A stretch of DNA of 64,000 nt, from assembly GCA_031281485.1 (NCBI GenBank), contig JAITFI010000033.1, positions 1 through 64,000 on the forward strand. The letters are read 5' to 3'. Position numbers and translations under genes: made by a program. Source of the stretch: Chitinispirillales bacterium. GTDB lineage: Bacteria > Fibrobacterota > Chitinivibrionia > Chitinivibrionales > Chitinispirillaceae. Shown here one piece after another: positions 15,591 to 43,343 of this stretch. The notes under the pieces are model-generated. The model saw only the letters and a list, made by a program, of their open reading frames with translations. It was not told where the DNA came from and made no database searches. Numbering within the stretch: the stretch's first letter is position 1; each line of letters begins with the position of its first letter.

Positions 15591-15735
15591 AAGCCTTCGG
15601 CTTCATAGGATATGCGGGGCTAACTTGTTTATCTCGGCGAAGCCAACCGACCTGACGTTGACGTTGACTTTATATGCGGGGTTTACGCATATACTATGGA
15701 AGGGCGCGATAAATCGCGCCCTTCCGTCTAAAAAA
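15591..15735. repeat. composite palindromic intergenic element, copy 2 (centre partly degraded)
   Basis: Same arms as copy 1: tagacgaagccttcggcttcataggatatgcggggctaa ... gactttatatgcggggttt..agggcgcgataaatcgcgcccttccgtcta. Confidence 0.8.
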
Positions 15736-16024
15736 GAATTTGATTTTAAAGATTTTAAAAGACTTTGATTTAAAAAATTTTGATTTTTTTTCTTGCTTTA
15801 TTGGTATGGTATCTATTATTTTTATATCCAAATACTTATAACAGATCGTCCGGAGAGCAAAAGCGGCTACGGTCTGGGCGGAACGGCGGATGCAACGCGT
15901 AAGTTTTGGGGAAGAGCGTGTATGAGTACGAAGACAGAAGTATACCGGAGCATAGGTAGTAGGGTTCAAGCCGTTACGGCCGTTATAAGCGCTTTCTATG
16001 CGCACGGCGTTGCTATAGGCGCAA

Positions 16025-16418: not shown

Positions 16419-16976
16419 ATGAGTAAAAAGATTACGTTTCTTCTATTGGCGTTTTGCTGCTCGGCTCTCTTCGCGCAGGGCGTACAGCCTATACAGAAAG
16501 CGCAACCCGGACAGCCGGCGCCGACAGGGCAACCCGTTACGCCCGCGCCGACCTCACCGACCGCACAGGCCAAGCGGTTCTTATCGGTTTACGTAGTAGG
16601 CGTTACCGGCGAGAAAGAGAGAAAGGTCTTAGGTAACGAGATAATGTACGCCCTCGTCAAAAGCGGGCGGTGCGTGCCGGCGGAGCGTTCAAACGACTTT
16701 TTGGACGCGCTGGCCCAAGAGCAAAAGGTTACGCCGCGGGTCAGTGATTTGCGGATTCGTGAAATTGCCAAGCAGTTCGGCGTCAAGTTTGTGTGCGTGG
16801 CGGAGCTGACGGAGGTGATGAATACCTTTCAGTTGGCGGCGCGCATAGTAAACATTGAGGCGGCGGAGGTGGAGGTGGTCGGCATAGCGTGTAACGATTT
16901 GAAGAGTGTGGATGATTTTTCGGCTGTTACGAACAAAATTATGGAATCTATGTTTGCCAAGAAGAAGGGGATGTAA
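16419..16976 (+). CDS. CsgG-like/LpoB-like N-module secreted protein
   Basis: Signal peptide; RFLSVYVVGVTGEKERKVLGNEIMYALVKSGRCVPAERSNDFLDALAQEQ shared with paralogs in the window. Confidence 0.65.
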   Translation: MSKKITFLLLAFCCSALFAQGVQPIQKAQPGQPAPTGQPVTPAPTSPTAQAKRFLSVYVVGVTGEKERKVLGNEIMYALVKSGRCVPAERSNDFLDALAQEQKVTPRVSDLRIREIAKQFGVKFVCVAELTEVMNTFQLAARIVNIEAAEVEVVGIACNDLKSVDDFSAVTNKIMESMFAKKKGM

Positions 16977-18605
16977 ATGAAAAAAGAGATAGCCGTTTGT
17001 TTTGCGGCGCTCTGCTGCGCGGCGGTTTTTACCTCCGCCGCCGCCGAGCCTAAGCCCGGCCTTGCCGTTTACGTGACCGGCGACAAGACGGAAAACGAGA
17101 AGAAAACGCTGGCCAACGACATTACGAACTCGTTCGTCAAGAGCGGACAGTACACGGTCGCGGAGCGCTCCGACGAATTTCTCGCGGCGCTTGCCAAGGA
17201 GCGGGGTACGCAGCGCGTGCCGATACCAATAAGCGACGCGCGGATTATTGAGGCCGCCAAAGAGTACGGCGTCGAGCAACTCTGCATGACGGATATAGCG
17301 GGGGTGCTGGGTACCTTTTACGTGTCGCTCCGCGTAATCGACATCGAAACGGGCGAGGTGGGCGCCGTCGGCAGCGCCTACAGCAACTTGCAGCGCCCGG
17401 AAGACTTCGCGAGCGTCAGCGACAACGCGGTGGGGGCTGTATTTACGATCGCGCTGCCTGTCGCGCCTAAAAAGCCGGCGCCGGCTCCCGCGATCGAGGA
17501 GGTCACTCCCGTCCCGCCGCCCGCAGAACCGCCCGTACCGGCACCCGCGCCTATACCGGCGCCTATACCCGCGCCGGACTTGCCGGAGGTAACGCCCGCG
17601 GTCGACGCCTCTTTCTACTATAATCAGGGCAACGCCAATGTCCAAAGCAATGACCATGACGGCGCGATCGCCAACTATACCGAGGCGCTCAAACTCGACC
17701 CTAGGTTGATCTACGCGCTCATTGCCAGAGGCGCGGCCTACTACTCCAAAGGCGATTACCAAAGCGCGGTGGACGACTACTCAAGAACCTTGGAACTCGA
17801 ACCCAACGACGCCGGAGTCTTCAACAGCCGCGGTAACGCCTACCGGCAAATGGGAAATTACGAAATGGCCATCGCGGACTACGAGGCCGCCCTGCGTATA
17901 GACCCGAATAACGCCGAGGCGAGAGAGAGCCTTGAGCTTATCAAATTGGACAAATCCGGAGAGGAAAAACCTGAGCACACCATCACGTTCTCCGGCTTGC
18001 TTGCCGACATGCTCAACATGCCCAAAGGCGAGGTACGGTACGGAGTCATAGTCTCTATAGCGCCGCAATTGCTGAAGGTAAGCGGCAACGCGTACGACAA
18101 TCACCTCAGCCACAGCGATTACTCCGGCGTGAGCGTCCCTTTCGGCCTCGCGCTGTCGATTCCGATTACCGGTTGGCTGACGGCGGAGACGGAGTTTAAA
18201 TATACCTACAGATCCCTAGATACTTACTGGGGTTCTTTTCACTCAAAAACCTATATAGACGAATCAGCGATAAACGTTCCGTTCTTGGCTCGGGTTACGG
18301 TGCCTTGGCGTAATTTGGGTTTCTATATTGAGAGCGGGTTTCAGCTGGAATTTCCCTTCGGTACCGAGTTTAGCGTAGAAAATTCCGATTCCAAGCCCGT
18401 GAGCATAAACGACAGGGGTATCGAATTGCAGTACGTTTTGGGATGGGGAGTCTCTTTTGAGTATAAGGCGAAGTGGAATGTGGGTTATAGAGTGGTGCCA
18501 TCGTGTTCTGATTTCGGAGGGAATTACGGATGGCTTTTTCAGCAGGAGCTATATTGCAGTCTGACGTTTCCCGGCGTCTTGCCGTCGTTTCTGACGCAGC
18601 GCTAA
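16977..18605 (+). CDS. CsgG-like module + Pro-rich linker + TPR repeats + outer-membrane-barrel-like C-terminus
   Basis: GLAVYVTGDKTENEKKTLANDITNSFVKSGQYTVAERSDEFL; APAPIPAPIPAPD linker; three TPRs; C-terminal alternating aromatic beta-like segment. Confidence 0.75.
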   Translation: MKKEIAVCFAALCCAAVFTSAAAEPKPGLAVYVTGDKTENEKKTLANDITNSFVKSGQYTVAERSDEFLAALAKERGTQRVPIPISDARIIEAAKEYGVEQLCMTDIAGVLGTFYVSLRVIDIETGEVGAVGSAYSNLQRPEDFASVSDNAVGAVFTIALPVAPKKPAPAPAIEEVTPVPPPAEPPVPAPAPIPAPIPAPDLPEVTPAVDASFYYNQGNANVQSNDHDGAIANYTEALKLDPRLIYALIARGAAYYSKGDYQSAVDDYSRTLELEPNDAGVFNSRGNAYRQMGNYEMAIADYEAALRIDPNNAEARESLELIKLDKSGEEKPEHTITFSGLLADMLNMPKGEVRYGVIVSIAPQLLKVSGNAYDNHLSHSDYSGVSVPFGLALSIPITGWLTAETEFKYTYRSLDTYWGSFHSKTYIDESAINVPFLARVTVPWRNLGFYIESGFQLEFPFGTEFSVENSDSKPVSINDRGIELQYVLGWGVSFEYKAKWNVGYRVVPSCSDFGGNYGWLFQQELYCSLTFPGVLPSFLTQR

Positions 18606-18660: not shown

Positions 18661-19839
18661 ATGAAAAAAATTCTGACAATCTTGCTCACTCTGTCGCTGT
18701 GCTCCATAGCGTTCGCGCAGGAGAACCGGGCAAAACCGACCGTGGCGGTATATATGGCCGGTCAGGAACCGAGAGGCGCCCTCGGCGTACACAAGGTCAT
18801 GGGCGGCGAGCTTGTAAAAGCCATAAGCCGAAGCGAGAAATACACGGCCGTAAACCGCACGGACGCGATCCTCGCGCAGCTAAGCAAGGAACACGTCTAT
18901 CAGCGCAGCGGCGCGGTGAACGACGACCAGATAAAGGCCATAGGGCAGCAACTTGGCGTCCAGTACCTCTGCATAGTGGAAATCAGCGACGTCAAAGGCG
19001 GCACTTTCTACATAGAAGTGCAGTTGGTGGACGTGGTAACCGCCGAGGCCGTAGCCTCCGCCACGGCCTCCAGCGACCTGCGGACCAACCAAGACATGAT
19101 GATCGCGGCGCAGTACGTGGCGCGTGATCTCGTGGGCGGCGGCGCGCCGCAGTCTAAACGCGGCAATGTCGAAATAGAGATGGTGTTCGTGCAAGGCGGA
19201 ACGTTTATGATGGGTTGCTCCGGCAGAAACGCCGGCAACTGCGAAAAAGACGAAAAACCGGCGCACAAAGTAACGCTCGGCGATTTCCAAATCGGTAAAT
19301 ACGAGGTGACCCAAAAACAGTGGTCGCAGGTGATGGGCAGCAACCCCTCCCATTTCAAAGGCGATAACCTGCCGGTAGGCAAGGTCAGCTGGTACGACGT
19401 CCAAGAGTTCATTGAGAAGCTGAACGCCCTAACCGGCAAGAAATACCGCTTGCCAACGGAAGCCGAGTGGGAGTTCGCCGCCCGCGGCGGCGTCAAGAGC
19501 ACCGGTTTCGCGTTTGCCGGAGGCAATAACGCCGGAGACGTGGCCTGGTACAAAAGCAACAGCGGCGGTAAGTGCCACGCCGTGGGCAGCCGGGGTTCCA
19601 ACGAACTCGGCATATACGACATGAGCGGCAACGTGTGGGAGTGGGTGAACGACTGGAGCGCCAATTACAACTCCGCCGACAGTAAAGACCCGTCCGGACC
19701 CGCTACCGGCAACAACCGCGTGCTTCGCGGCGGCAGTTGGCCCTACGACGCGAGCTATTGCCGCGTCTCGTACCGCAACGGCAGCGCGCCGGGCAACCGC
19801 GGCGCCGACGTGGGCTTTAGATTGGCCATATCGCCGTAA
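18661..19839 (+). CDS. CsgG-like module fused to a formylglycine-generating-enzyme/SUMF1-type (C-type lectin fold) domain
   Basis: TVAVYMAGQEPRGALGVHKVMGGELVKAISRSEKYTAVNRTDAILAQL; then EMVFVQGGTFMMGC...RLPTEAEWEFAARGG...RVLRGGSW...GFRLA. Confidence 0.85.
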   Translation: MKKILTILLTLSLCSIAFAQENRAKPTVAVYMAGQEPRGALGVHKVMGGELVKAISRSEKYTAVNRTDAILAQLSKEHVYQRSGAVNDDQIKAIGQQLGVQYLCIVEISDVKGGTFYIEVQLVDVVTAEAVASATASSDLRTNQDMMIAAQYVARDLVGGGAPQSKRGNVEIEMVFVQGGTFMMGCSGRNAGNCEKDEKPAHKVTLGDFQIGKYEVTQKQWSQVMGSNPSHFKGDNLPVGKVSWYDVQEFIEKLNALTGKKYRLPTEAEWEFAARGGVKSTGFAFAGGNNAGDVAWYKSNSGGKCHAVGSRGSNELGIYDMSGNVWEWVNDWSANYNSADSKDPSGPATGNNRVLRGGSWPYDASYCRVSYRNGSAPGNRGADVGFRLAISP

Positions 19840-19910
19840 CACGGCCGGGATGTTAAATTTACGATCAATATTGAACATTAACCATAAAGATAAGTAATAG
19901 GAGCATTATT

Positions 19911-21431
19911 ATGATGAAAGAGCACATTGTTGCAAATCCGGCGCCCCGCCGTAGACAACGCGTCCTTTTCGACGCCGCGGCGTCGCTGTCGATCGCTTTT
20001 TGCCTGATATTCGCCGCGTGCGACAGCAACCCGACAAGCGAGAGCTTCGATAGCGTGGCCAACGGGCATGTCATAACGTTCAACAAGAACGGCGGCGACG
20101 GCGACGCGCCGAATACCATAGTAGTGATGCACGAGGGTGTGTTAAGGCTTCCGGGCAATGGGAATTTGACAAAAAACGGGTATACTTTCGGCGGTTGGTC
20201 GTCGACGCCGTCAAACTCCGGAAACCTCTACTCCGCCGGCGAAACTTATAGGGCGTACGGAGACATCATCCTATACGCCAGATGGAACGCCCCAGCCTAT
20301 ACCATAACGTTCAACGCCAACGGCGGTACAGTCTCCCCCACAAGCGCCGCCACAAACTCAAGCGGCTATCTCAACATAGACTTGCCCACGCCCACAAGAA
20401 GCGGCTATACGTTCGACGGATGGTATACATCCTCTTCCGGAGGAACACGGGTGACGACAGGGTATGCATTTACCGGGAATACCACCATATACGCCCAGTG
20501 GACGACAACCTCTCCGGGGACTTCCTACACGATAACGCTCAACGCCAACGGCGGAACGCTCGCCGGCGGATCGACCGTAACTACCGGTACAAACGGGAAA
20601 CTATCGAGTTTGCCGTCCAATCCCACAAGAAGCGGTTATACGTTCAACGGATGGTACACATCCGCTACAGGCGGCTCAATGATAACAACAGATCACACGT
20701 TCACATCAAATAGCACCATATACGCACAGTGGACATCCGCCATCACATATACCATAACGTTCAATGCCAACGGCGGGAGTGTATCGCCCACGTCCGGTAC
20801 AACAAATACAAACGGTAATCTCACAAGTTTGCCCACGCCCGCAAGAGGCGGTTATACGTTCAACGGATGGTACTCATCCGCTACCGGCGGTTCGAGGATA
20901 ACAACAGACTACCAATTCACGGGAAATACCACGGTATACGCTCAATGGGCGCAAATTATCATAACGTTCAGTCCCAATGGCGGGACAGTCGACCGAACAA
21001 GCGCACCGGTAGGCGAAGACGGCACACTCGCAGATCTGCCCACGCCCACAAGACTGGGTTATACGTTCATAGGGTGGACTGACCCGAATGGCGAGGAGGT
21101 GTCGCTAACCACAGTATTCCTAGCGAGTGTCACCATACGCGCTCAGTGGGAGCAAAATTCCTACTATACAATAACATTTGACGCCAATGGAGGTATATTC
21201 TATCTACCCGATGGACCGACGTCCACAGACCCGCGAAATACAGGCGATACTTTCAAATTACCGGGTTCGCCGACTATTCCCGTATGGCCCGGTTATACGT
21301 TTGCGGGATGGTATGATGCCCCTACGGACGGCAATAGAATAATGGCGGAAAATTATGAAACGCAAGTATATCCAAGGTCTATGACCGTATACGCTCATTG
21401 GACGCCGATAGAGGAGGATGTCGAGGAATGA
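19911..21431 (+). CDS. lipoprotein with about six Listeria-Bacteroides (InlB B / Flg_new type) repeats
   Basis: Lipobox-like IFAAC; repeats YTITFNANGGTVSPTS...RSGYTFDGWYTSSSGG...TTIYAQW. Confidence 0.85.
   Translation: MMKEHIVANPAPRRRQRVLFDAAASLSIAFCLIFAACDSNPTSESFDSVANGHVITFNKNGGDGDAPNTIVVMHEGVLRLPGNGNLTKNGYTFGGWSSTPSNSGNLYSAGETYRAYGDIILYARWNAPAYTITFNANGGTVSPTSAATNSSGYLNIDLPTPTRSGYTFDGWYTSSSGGTRVTTGYAFTGNTTIYAQWTTTSPGTSYTITLNANGGTLAGGSTVTTGTNGKLSSLPSNPTRSGYTFNGWYTSATGGSMITTDHTFTSNSTIYAQWTSAITYTITFNANGGSVSPTSGTTNTNGNLTSLPTPARGGYTFNGWYSSATGGSRITTDYQFTGNTTVYAQWAQIIITFSPNGGTVDRTSAPVGEDGTLADLPTPTRLGYTFIGWTDPNGEEVSLTTVFLASVTIRAQWEQNSYYTITFDANGGIFYLPDGPTSTDPRNTGDTFKLPGSPTIPVWPGYTFAGWYDAPTDGNRIMAENYETQVYPRSMTVYAHWTPIEEDVEE
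20071..21402 (+). repeat. tandem coding repeats (InlB B-type), about 200-230 bp per unit
   Basis: Recurring ataacgttcaa(c/t)gccaacggcgg ... aagcggttatacgttcaacggatggta units. Confidence 0.8.
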
Positions 21432-21560: not shown

Positions 21561-23105
21561 ATGAAAATGAGTAAAAGCCTGTCCACCTATCTCGTAGTCG
21601 CGCTCTTCTACGCGTGCGCCGCCCTCCTAACTCCGGTTTTCGCCGCGGCCCAAAAACCGCACATAGCCGTCTACGTCACCGGCGACAAGACCGAGAACGA
21701 GAAGAAGGCGCTCGCCAACGAAATCCTGAACACGCTTGTCAAAAGCGGCAAGTACGCCCCCGCCGTGCGCATAAACGACTTTCTCGCGGCGATTGCCGTG
21801 GAGCAGAAGAAACAGCGCGTAAGCGACGCCCAGTTCCGGGATATCGCCCAGCAGCATGGGATAGAGTATATCTGCGTAACTGATATTACCGATTTATTCA
21901 ATACCTCTTACCTATCGCTCCGCATAGTGAACGCCGCAACCGGCGAGTCGGAGGTTATCAGCAGTATCTACAGCGACCTGAAGCGTTTTGAGGATTTCAC
22001 AAGCGTCCATGACAAGGTCGTCGGCGCCATGTTTACGATAGCCAATGCCAAAAAGCCGGCGACGCCGGAGCCGGAGCAGGTACCGGCAATCGCTCTTGAT
22101 GAGGAGGGCGGAGCGCCCGCCTCCGGTACGGACGCCTCTTACTATTACAAACAGGGGCACGCCTTTAGCCAAAGCAACGACCACGACGGCGCCATAGCCA
22201 ATTACACCGAGGCGCTGAAACTCGATCCGAGATTGGTCTACGCCCTCATTGCCCGCGGTTCCGCCTACTACTCCAAGGGCGACTACCAAAGCGCCGTAGA
22301 GGACTATTCGCGAAGCATAGAATTGGAACCCAACGACGCCGGAGTATTCAACAACCGCGGTAACGCCTACCGCCAGATGGGAAACTACGACATGGCGAGA
22401 GCGGACTATCAGGCTGCTCTGCGCATAGACCCGAATAACGCCGAGGCTCGGCAAAGCTTGGAGCTTATCAGTTTGGACAAATCCGGGGAAGAACAGTCGG
22501 GGCAATACACGAGAGAGAAATATGGGATGCATTACGGTGTTACGGGGGGGCTGCATTTGGATTGGCTGGAGTTCGCCGGAGATCACGACTACAACGGCTA
22601 TCCGACGATTTATAATAGATACGGCGGATACGACTATTGGGGCTATGGCGTTTCCGGCGGAATAGCGCTCTCTTATCAGATTAACGATTGGCTGGCGTAT
22701 GTGGCGGAGCTGAACGGTACCTACAGGGAATTGTGGGGCGGTGATAAATACTTTGATGGAAAGTTTAAAGAGCTTATAGTAAGCGTTCCGGTTTTGGCCC
22801 GGGTTAACACAACGCAGTGGCAAAATTTCGGATTATACGCCGAGAGCGGTATTCAAATTGAGATTCCCTACGAATCGAAACACAGATATGACCATGACTA
22901 CTATTACGGTTACGGTTACGACCGCTCCTACCACAGCACAGAAAACAGAAACAACGATCTCCAAATTGTCATAGGCGGCGGGCTGTACGCTCATCTCGGA
23001 ATTACATGGTACTTAGGCGTCAGGGGGACCGTCTCGCTCGTGAATTTCGCGGGCGGCGAAGGCCGGCTCTTTCAAAGCCAGGCCGTTCTCAGCATGATGT
23101 ATTAA
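21561..23105 (+). CDS. CsgG-like module + TPR + outer-membrane-barrel-like protein (paralog of 16977..18605)
   Basis: HIAVYVTGDKTENEKKALANEILNTLVKSGKYAPAVRINDFLAAIA; TPRs nearly identical to the paralog; divergent Tyr/Gly-rich C-terminus. Confidence 0.75.
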   Translation: MKMSKSLSTYLVVALFYACAALLTPVFAAAQKPHIAVYVTGDKTENEKKALANEILNTLVKSGKYAPAVRINDFLAAIAVEQKKQRVSDAQFRDIAQQHGIEYICVTDITDLFNTSYLSLRIVNAATGESEVISSIYSDLKRFEDFTSVHDKVVGAMFTIANAKKPATPEPEQVPAIALDEEGGAPASGTDASYYYKQGHAFSQSNDHDGAIANYTEALKLDPRLVYALIARGSAYYSKGDYQSAVEDYSRSIELEPNDAGVFNNRGNAYRQMGNYDMARADYQAALRIDPNNAEARQSLELISLDKSGEEQSGQYTREKYGMHYGVTGGLHLDWLEFAGDHDYNGYPTIYNRYGGYDYWGYGVSGGIALSYQINDWLAYVAELNGTYRELWGGDKYFDGKFKELIVSVPVLARVNTTQWQNFGLYAESGIQIEIPYESKHRYDHDYYYGYGYDRSYHSTENRNNDLQIVIGGGLYAHLGITWYLGVRGTVSLVNFAGGEGRLFQSQAVLSMMY

Positions 23106-36309: not shown

Positions 36310-36381
36310 GGTATGCTCCTTTAAATCACGGCATCGCCGCGTGTGGTGATTTATTATCAATATTACCGTACATTCGGCTTC

Positions 36382-36497
36382 TCACAACTCCAAATCCCCC
36401 CTAAAATACTCAATAGTCTTAACAAGCCCCTCCTTCAACCTTACTTTTGGCTCCCACCCTAATCTCTCCTTGGCCAGCGTGATATCCAGCTGCCTTT
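36382..36497 (-). pseudogene. 3' tail fragment (B) of the SDR/UDP-glucuronate-decarboxylase-like gene at 41452
   Basis: Nearly the same sequence as 41452-41563 (ctcacaactccaaatcccccctaaaatactcaatagtcttaacaagccc...), interrupted by a 34-bp repeat. Confidence 0.92.
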
Positions 36498-38316: not shown

Positions 38317-39342
38317 TCAAAAAGGCTGTTTTGGCGGCATGGACACGGCGGTTATGTTTTTAAAAGTTTTCCAACCGGCGGCTTGACGATAGGCGTCAAT
38401 GCTGTTTTGAGGCACATTTACGACGCAAGACATATATTTTACGCCGTCAAACGCCGCTAACTCCAGCCGGGGCGGGACAGGATTTCTGCATGTTACGGCG
38501 GCAAGGCGGCCGCAATTCGAAAACGCGCTGTTTCCTATAGACGCCACGCTGTTGGGAATGGTTAAGGCGCTTAGGTTATTGCTGCCTGAAAACGCGGATT
38601 TTCCTATAGACATTACTCCATCCTCAACAACTATATTGGTAATGGCGCTTTTGTTTTTGCTCCAAAGGTACATGGCGTTGTCTTTCATATTCCCGTTGCC
38701 GCGAACGATAAACGTCCCATCGGCCAATAAATCGGCGGCGACGGTTCCGACCGCCGCGCCGCAATCCCACGTCGCAACGATCTTGGGCGGTTCGGACGAC
38801 GAATAGGCGGACTGAAGCGCGCCGTTTGAGGCTATCGGACGGACAGGCTTAGACTCCTTAAACATCTTCCTCACCACTTCGTCCGACACTTGTTCGAGAT
38901 CGTCCATCGATTTCAACGGACTGTTGGCGTCGCCGATAAACGCGACCACCGCCGTCTCCACGTCTATTATGCGGGCAGAAACCTGAAATCCCCCGAAAGC
39001 CGGCGTTATGTCGGCCGCGCACACATATCTGACGCCGTATTGTTTGCCCAGCGCGCTGATTTGGCTGTCGTCTATCGCGCCGCTGCGTTGTTTCGCCTGC
39101 TCCTTGTCTATTTCGGCCAAAAATACATCGGAACGCTCTATGGCGATGAAATGGCCCCTTTCAACGAGAGCGGAGAGAATCCGCGTGCCGAGCGCTTTCT
39201 TCTCGTCTTTATGAACGCCGACGCCGCCGGTTACGTAAACGGCGATCTTCGGCAGGCTTTGCGTATATGCCGTTACGCTCACGAACATGATTATAAAAAG
39301 AAATACCGAACTTCTCACGTTTTTACGCTTTGCGGCGGCCAT
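38317..39342 (-). CDS. CsgG-like module fused to BspA-type leucine-rich repeats (LRR_5)
   Basis: KIAVYVTGGVGVHKDEKKALGTRILSALVERGHFIAIERSDVFLAEI; VMSIGKSAFSGSNNLSALTIPNSVASIGNSAFSNCGRLAAVTCRN. Confidence 0.82.
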   Translation of the reverse strand: MAAAKRKNVRSSVFLFIIMFVSVTAYTQSLPKIAVYVTGGVGVHKDEKKALGTRILSALVERGHFIAIERSDVFLAEIDKEQAKQRSGAIDDSQISALGKQYGVRYVCAADITPAFGGFQVSARIIDVETAVVAFIGDANSPLKSMDDLEQVSDEVVRKMFKESKPVRPIASNGALQSAYSSSEPPKIVATWDCGAAVGTVAADLLADGTFIVRGNGNMKDNAMYLWSKNKSAITNIVVEDGVMSIGKSAFSGSNNLSALTIPNSVASIGNSAFSNCGRLAAVTCRNPVPPRLELAAFDGVKYMSCVVNVPQNSIDAYRQAAGWKTFKNITAVSMPPKQPF

Positions 39343-41341: not shown

Positions 41342-41451
41342 AACGCCTCCTTTTAATATGGGTTATAGACCGAAGCACATTAATAATATAAATCGCGGCA
41401 TGACCCGTCGCAGGTAATTTTTTATCAATATCCTGCCGCGCGCTCGGCTTC

Positions 41452-42393
41452 TCACAACTCCAAATCCCCCCTAAAATACTCAATAGTCTTAACAAGCCCG
41501 TCCTTCAACCCGACTTTCGGCTCCCACCCCAACCTCTCCTTGGCCAGCGTGATATCCGGCTGCCGCTGTTTCGGGTCGTCGGACGGCAGCGGTTGATAAA
41601 CGATTTTCGACTTGCTACCGGTCAGGCTTATCACCTCTTCCGCCAATTGCTTTATCGTAAACTCGCCGGGATTACCGATATTGACCGGCCCTACGGTGTC
41701 GTCCGCGTTCATCAGGCTTATCATTCCGTCAATCAGATCGTCCACGTAGCAGAACGACCGCGTCTGCGAGCCGTCGCCATAGATCGTTATATCGTTCCCT
41801 TTAAGCGCTTGCACGATGAAGTTCGACACCACGCGGCCGTCGTTCGGGTGCATACGCGGGCCGTAGGTATTGAAGATGCGCATAACCCTTATGTCAACCT
41901 TGTTCATACGGTGGTAATCGAAAAACAGCGTTTCCGCCACCCTCTTCCCCTCGTCGTAGCACGACCGTACGCCTATGGGGTTGACGTTGCCCCAATAGCT
42001 CTCCTTTTGCGGGTGTTCGTGGGGGTCGCCGTAGACTTCCGACGTCGACGCCTGCAGCACGCGCGCCCTTACGCGCTTCGCCAGACCCAGTACGTTGATC
42101 GCGCCCATAACGGAGGTCTTGATCGTCTTCACGGCGTTGTACTGGTAGTGGACGGGGGAAGCGGGGCACGCTAAGTTGTAGATTTGGTCGACTTCCACGT
42201 AGACGGGGAAGGTCACGTCGTGGCGCAGGAGTTCGAAATTGTGACGGTCGAATAGGCGCTCCACGTTCTTCTTGCGTCCTGTGAAGTAGTTATCCAGGCA
42301 TATCACGTCGTGCCCCTGCCCCACTAACTTCTCGCACAAATGCGAGCCCAGGAAACCGGCGCCGCCGGTCACCAAAATTCGTTTTGTTTTCAT
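41452..42393 (-). CDS. NAD-dependent SDR epimerase/dehydratase, UDP-glucuronate decarboxylase-like
   Basis: [96 protein letters not shown]. Confidence 0.92.
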
Positions 42394-42410
42394 TACCGTT
42401 CCGCCTTTCA

Positions 42411-43343
42411 TCATATACCCCTGATCTCAACACCCTCCATCAACTGCCAGACCTCATCCAGCGTGACGATCCCCGGCCCCTCGTGCAGGCTTTTCGACGA
42501 CCCGCACGCTACCGCCATCCTGCACATCTCCGCGAAGGCGAAGCTGCGTTTTTGCGCCACCAGCACTCCGGCGGCGAAGGCGTCGCCGCACCCTACCGTG
42601 TCGACCGTCTTTATATCCGGCGGGGAGCAGAGGAGGCACTGTTCCTCGTGTATCGCTATCACCCCGTCTTGGCCCAGGGTTATGAAGACATACTCCACGC
42701 CCATGTCTATGAAACGCTTGCCGCACAACGCTATGTGGTGCACGCCCTTGATCTCTTCCTGATGGAAGAACTCTTGGAGCTCCGTCAGGTTCGGCGTGAT
42801 GACCCGCGGGGCGGCTCGCGCGCCGGTTTTGAGCGCCATGCCGCGTGTGTCTAAGAGGCAGCTCACGCCGATCTCTTTGAAGTCGCGTATCAGACGGGCG
42901 TAAACGTCGTCGTCAAAGCCACTGGGCAGGCTCCCGCTGAAGCACCAGTCAGCGCCGGCCTCCGCGTGCCCGGCCAGAAAGCGCAGGAAGTCCTCCTGAA
43001 GGCTGACCGGCAGCGCCGACGACGCGCTGTTTATGTGGGTGACGCAATCCGTCTGAGCGTCGTGCAGCGTGACGTTTACCCGCGTAACGCCCGGAGCCTC
43101 GTAGAGGAGCGACTTTATACCGTAATCGGCCAAGAAAGCCTCAAAACGGCGCATATCGTTCTTTGGAATAAGCCCGGCGACCGCCACCTCCTCGCCGAGC
43201 GTCTTGACCACCCGCGCCACGTTCAGCCCCTTGCCGGCCGGCACGGTGCGCGACTCGACGTCTAAGCGGGTTGCGCCCAACTCAAAGCCGTCCACGCGAT
43301 AGAAGGCGTCTATCACGGGGTTCAAAAGCGTGCATACTATCAT
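42411..43343 (-). CDS. PfkB-family hexose kinase (1-phosphofructokinase-like)
   Basis: [65 protein letters not shown]. Confidence 0.88.

Follow-up and report, generated by a model that had tools for sequence, protein, structure and literature searches.

In diversity-generating retroelements (DGRs), a reverse transcriptase (RT) copies a template RNA while misreading its adenines, and the mutated cDNA replaces the variable region (VR) of a target gene. Isolates of Treponema denticola that have neither the RT nor the template repeat (TR) keep leftover targets with a formylglycine-generating enzyme (FGE) domain, whose differences from TRs fall mostly at adenines (PMC4891356). Targets can also be diversified in trans, as in Thiohalocapsa PB-PSB1 (PMC10907252), and in the BPP-1 system efficient homing requires both the IMH and a hairpin (PMC3240598). 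A global DGR survey pools Fibrobacteres with other phyla (PMC8144416), and our literature search, incomplete in its coverage, found no paper on DGRs of the Chitinispirillia/Chitinivibrionia group. The orphan-target case already described in T. denticola probably recurs here in a further lineage, in a gene on a 64,000-nucleotide stretch of a Chitinispirillales genome (hereafter, the window).

The gene encodes a protein with an N-terminal hydrophobic, signal-like helix, a CsgG/LpoB-like domain and a C-terminal FGE-type C-type-lectin domain that ends in RVLRGGSWPYDASYCRVSYRNGSAPGNRGADVGFRLAISP (Table 1). An earlier note, made from the letters alone, had assigned the C-terminus to the FGE family, and the Pfam match confirms this (PF03781, E=4e-49); its 'CsgG' label for the N-terminal domain was weaker, the best Pfam matches being DUF3280 (7.5e-4) and then CsgG (0.0011), both below their cut-offs. 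The AlphaFold model (pLDDT 83.8) finds its best PDB match by Foldseek in 2Y3C, the T. denticola DGR variable protein TvpA (E=5.8e-22, 36% identity), followed among solved structures by human FGE (27% identity), such that Pfam and structure both place the VR at the C-terminus on a C-type-lectin (FGE) fold. FGE paralogues are numerous in the window's own assembly (14 matches). In the FGE-domain tree, no gene exceeds about 64% identity to the target's FGE domain, and homologues in phage records reach at most 48.5%. We dropped the placement of the window gene among IMH-bearing genes by this tree, as its backbone was unresolved, with IMH-bearing and IMH-less genes both lying near the window gene. 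Five window ORFs (16419-16976, 16977-18605, 18661-19839, 21561-23105 and 38317-39342) appear to have one N-terminal CsgG/LpoB-like domain in common, followed in that order by no further module, TPR plus an outer-membrane barrel, FGE, TPR plus a barrel, and leucine-rich-like repeats. Directly 3' of the target gene (19911-21431) is a lipoprotein-like protein with six Listeria-Bacteroides (InlB B-type) repeats.

Table 1. Coordinates of features of the target-type gene in the window
Feature	Position	Strand	Basis
Target-type protein gene, 392 aa	18661..19839	+	ORF; Pfam; AlphaFold model
N-terminal CsgG/LpoB/FlgT-like domain, weakly classified	18718..19170	+	Pfam below cut-offs; family common to other window ORFs
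FGE-sulfatase domain (C-type-lectin fold)	19177..19827	+	PF03781 E=4.1e-49, residues 173-389
Probable variable region (VR); its 40 codons align to TRs of congeners	19711..19830	+	Adenine-confined differences; 0/36 core codons non-derivable
Stretch with codons at adenine-bearing template positions	19741..19815	+	Template protein NNDARNCRVSNRNNNTPDNRNNNI in G001/G002
Drifted VR 3' end, place of the IMH in congener VRs	19813..19847	+	TCGCCGTAACACGGCC instead of TCCCYYTrAGTTCA
5-bp inverted repeat at stop codon, probably chance	19833..19845	+	Sequence; background 11-25%

Relatives, which include MAGs titled Chitinispirillia and Chitinivibrionia, carry DGRs of a corresponding kind. HRDC-RT-TR cassettes are present within the same genus in G003 and G007 (G001 and G002 are also congeners) and outside it in G010, G029 and G038; their RT is an RVT_1 protein (55 bits) preceded by a gene with an HRDC domain. 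RTs adjoin FGE genes in several relatives, and FGE-fold target genes often lie far from the cassettes. A repeat scan allowing adenine-only mismatches returned TR/VR pairs in G029:C3 and G038:C58, and in these as well as in a pair in G029:C49 the mismatches fall almost only at adenines. Reading frames with GFR[VLC] revealed TRs directly 3' of the RT in G003, G007 and G010, and a 40-residue profile search added TRs in G001 and G002 and a second TR in G029, together with many VR-bearing genes on contigs other than that of the TR or RT. Solo TRs with IMH* were found in G001 (C61, locus L223, 2527-2646) and G002 (C266:24438-24557, locus L224; C162:304-399, locus L239). No RT or HRDC gene stands beside the TRs of G001 and G002, neither assembly (about 90% complete; G002, 92%) yielded an RT homologue at any other place, and a search for RT or HRDC remnants around the G001 solo TR and in loci L190, L224 and L225 gave nothing significant. 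The VRs of G002 look recently diversified to judge from their alignment: across five of them, 79 of 85 non-adenine sites are invariant and 30 of 35 adenine sites variable. Elsewhere in these genomes, an HNH-like ORF separates VR from TR in G001, and the cis-target VR beside the HRDC-RT-TR cassette of G010 (L186, C19:87537-87661) is split across two frames, so that this target appears frameshifted or misassembled.

Since the window's own assembly holds no detected TR, its VR can only be compared with templates of congeners. The G001/G002 template encodes SNRVIRGGSWNNDARNCRVSNRNNNTPDNRNNNIGFRLA, where the window segment reads NNRVLRGGSWPYDASYCRVSYRNGSAPGNRGADVGFRLA. Against the TR of G001:C61, over codons 3-34 and codon positions 1 and 2, 17 of 29 template adenines differ but none of 35 other bases (Fisher p=4e-8, only a guide because the TR is from another species and was the best match among several, and because the sites are not independent). 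The 36 core codons divide into 14 identical to the template, 8 synonymous and 14 changed, and adenine mutation can account for every one of the latter when synonymous template codons are admitted, leaving 0/36 violations. Among congener FGE genes, the only others that score 0/35 are two known VRs with an IMH, G001:C59 and G002:C173. IMH-less FGE genes of the genome group show 1-20 non-adenine differences in 35, mostly at least 5, and the three other aligned FGE genes of the window's own assembly show 10-12; counted as violating codons against the G001 TR, the group's IMH-less FGE genes (37) have 2-18 and the window none. From the column frequencies of IMH-less genes, the chance of no violation at 16 adenine sites is 3e-4. 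A scan of public genomes gave 70 homologous segments with at least 3 violations even against the best of eight TRs, though nearly all are from other phyla and some are perhaps DGR targets themselves. Because its scores of 0/35 and 0/36 are equalled only by known congener VRs, we consider the window segment very probably a DGR variable region, as the earlier note had proposed, and the TRs of congeneric FGE-type DGRs indeed predict which of its codons differ. Two IMH-less genes, G003:C139 and G002:C108, nevertheless come close (1/35 each), and the boundary between former VRs and ordinary genes may thus be gradual.

The codons at adenine sites are CCC TAC GAC, TAT, TAC, AAC GGC AGC GCG, GGC AAC and GGC GCC GAC GTG. 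The earlier list of variable codons was accurate in what it cited, all NNC or NNT, and NNY codons indeed occupy 11 of 11 core positions with Asn in congeneric TRs (about 0.001 by chance, as 54% of the other codons of the ORF are NNY). It missed GCG and GTG, however, which break the AAY rule and for which the G001/G002 TR has fitting codons, ACN (Thr) and ATN (Ile) respectively. The accompanying statement that framework codons use other third bases does not hold, as 13 of 20 framework codons likewise end in C or T; and the peptide quoted for the region, though present, spans 19717-19827, so that the start given for it, 19735, falls inside it.

At its 3' end the window VR departs from this pattern. 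The most template-like congener VRs mostly end, as does the G010 cis target, in TCCCYYTrAGTTC, where TRs have AGCTC (IMH and IMH*, respectively). No recognisable IMH is present in the window VR, which has TCGCCGTAACACGG where congeners have TCCCYYTrAGTTCA. Its last six codons contain 8 mismatches to the G001 TR at 18 non-adenine sites, compared with 8 at 65 sites upstream, all of these at third positions (Fisher p=0.005); TR 3' ends do vary between genera. Absence of the IMH together with a drifted 3' end speaks for the loss of a docking site that this target once had. The hairpin GCCGT-AAC-ACGGC noted at the stop codon exists, but is no rarer than expected by chance: across the window, a stem of at least 5 bp occurs in 11% of stretches of 30 nt and in 25% of those of 60 nt. 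The hairpin of most G002 VRs is another one, with a 7-bp stem and a distance of about 34 nt downstream of the VR.

The window's own assembly (G000; 2.28 Mb in 107 contigs, 68% complete) yielded no RVT_1 domain, no match to a congeneric DGR RT used as query and no asparagine-rich template. The search for an HRDC accessory gene gave nothing convincing (best E 0.09), the TR-downstream element was missing (best E 0.13), and DNA and profile searches turned up no TR that agrees with the VR at all but its adenines. The IMH pattern TCCCYYTrAGTTCA occurs nowhere in it. A second copy of the VR was found neither in the window nor in the assembly, nor was another VR of the same framework found in the assembly, and the framework pattern had no match in IMG/VR. 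The lack of an RT ORF and template repeat first remarked on in the window is thus borne out across this 68% complete assembly, where the suggested search for both came back empty. Two biased repeat pairs in the window surfaced in the TR scan and were rejected as TR/VR pairs. One, at 2759-2829 and 15686-15756, is a 71-bp repeat with a GC-rich palindrome (GGGCGCGAT..ATCGCGCCC), terminator- or REP-like. The other is a 114-bp direct repeat with 6 mismatches (36374-36487 and 41444-41557); an epimerase-like ORF (41452-42414) has its 3' end in the second copy, and the first resembles a stray fragment of that ORF.

We put at about 0.58 the probability that this gene is an orphan target of a TvpA-type DGR, probably a retired one, orphan in that its IMH is decayed and no cassette was found. 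Its C-terminal 40 codons would have been written by a TvpA/FGE-type HRDC-RT-TR DGR, of a type that circulates in the genus and its relatives and often has targets distant from the RT, and the IMH docking site would then have decayed in the window lineage, leaving the gene behind. We infer that mutagenic retrohoming made the differences and has since stopped, in which case the present binding face would be a frozen product of past diversification and may bind a ligand.

The earlier note had instead suggested a current target served by an RT in trans, and this would require that the RT, TR and accessory gene reside in that third of the genome which is missing from the assembly, or on an element that escaped binning, and that the VR use a diverged IMH of its own. 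There is no sign of such a system in G000: with none of RT, HRDC gene, TR, TR-downstream element or IMH motif found in the 68% complete assembly, no other VR of its framework there, and a 3' end without the docking site seen in most well-matching VRs of the genus and in the G010 targets, the suggestion is unsupported and we think it unlikely, if still worth serious consideration. Missing machinery in a MAG is weak evidence, since the G002 VRs look diversified yet that 92% complete assembly has no RT, and relatives commonly have VRs and TR on different contigs. It is conceivable, at considerably longer odds, that DGRs of this genus are scattered in pieces: TRs would stand alone, RTs would be rare or would come from a different contig, element or cell, and a large family of surface proteins with the FGE fold, that of the window among them, would be diversified from these in trans. 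If that were true, scans that start from the RT would miss most targets, and the incompleteness of MAGs would hide the remaining ones.

About as improbable as such a scattered system is an ordinary FGE-family C-type-lectin protein that no DGR has ever touched, its match to the templates reflecting a conserved fold and surface positions that are variable in general. Paralogues are common, the frame RGGSW...CR.S.R...P......GFR is family-wide and the tree does not separate the window gene from IMH-less ones; all the same, such genes, including the three others aligned from its own assembly, do not reach its zero counts of non-adenine differences and violating codons. We give very little credence to the segment having been recombined in from a DGR-diversified gene of another strain without ever being diversified in place. 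Acquisition of a lone target has been offered as an alternative for one leftover gene in T. denticola (PMC4891356), and the modest identity of the FGE domain to every gene in the tree would suit such an origin, but neither the genome itself nor viral contigs yielded a donor of the same framework.

On the reading of an orphan target, the gene illustrates that congeneric templates may suffice to recognise a DGR variable region whose own RT and template are missing, and it brings in a lineage rich in FGE-fold targets. The formylglycine-generating enzymes or sulfatase-modifying factors (PF03781) belong to the same domain family and fold; the catalytic pair of human FGE, Cys336/Cys341, presumably corresponds by eye to Tyr and Cys in the window protein (only Cys341 being kept), and a catalytic role for this domain appears unlikely from its sequence. 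With BPP-1 (Mtd; PMC3240598), the locus has in common the overall scheme of a TR, a VR, IMH/IMH* and mutagenesis at adenines, but BPP-1 targets need an IMH and a downstream 8-bp hairpin, whereas the window VR offers only the 5-bp repeat. Thiohalocapsa PB-PSB1 (PMC10907252) resembles it in having target loci with no RT or TR of their own, components located elsewhere, and C-lectin domains of the FGE subtype; there, however, VRs match a remote TR perfectly at non-adenine sites and diversification was observed, while in G000 no TR was found and the VR 3' end has drifted. Closest is the TvpA DGR of T. denticola (PMC4891356; PDB 2Y3C), similar in its C-terminal VR on an FGE fold, its adenine-confined differences, an HRDC accessory gene with the RT (here in relatives), targets remote from the core and targets that persist in genomes without RT and TR. 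It differs in that the window protein has an N-terminal CsgG/LpoB-like domain and comes from a different phylum, and in that the window's relatives have their own IMH sequence and, in G001 and G002, TRs with no RT nearby.
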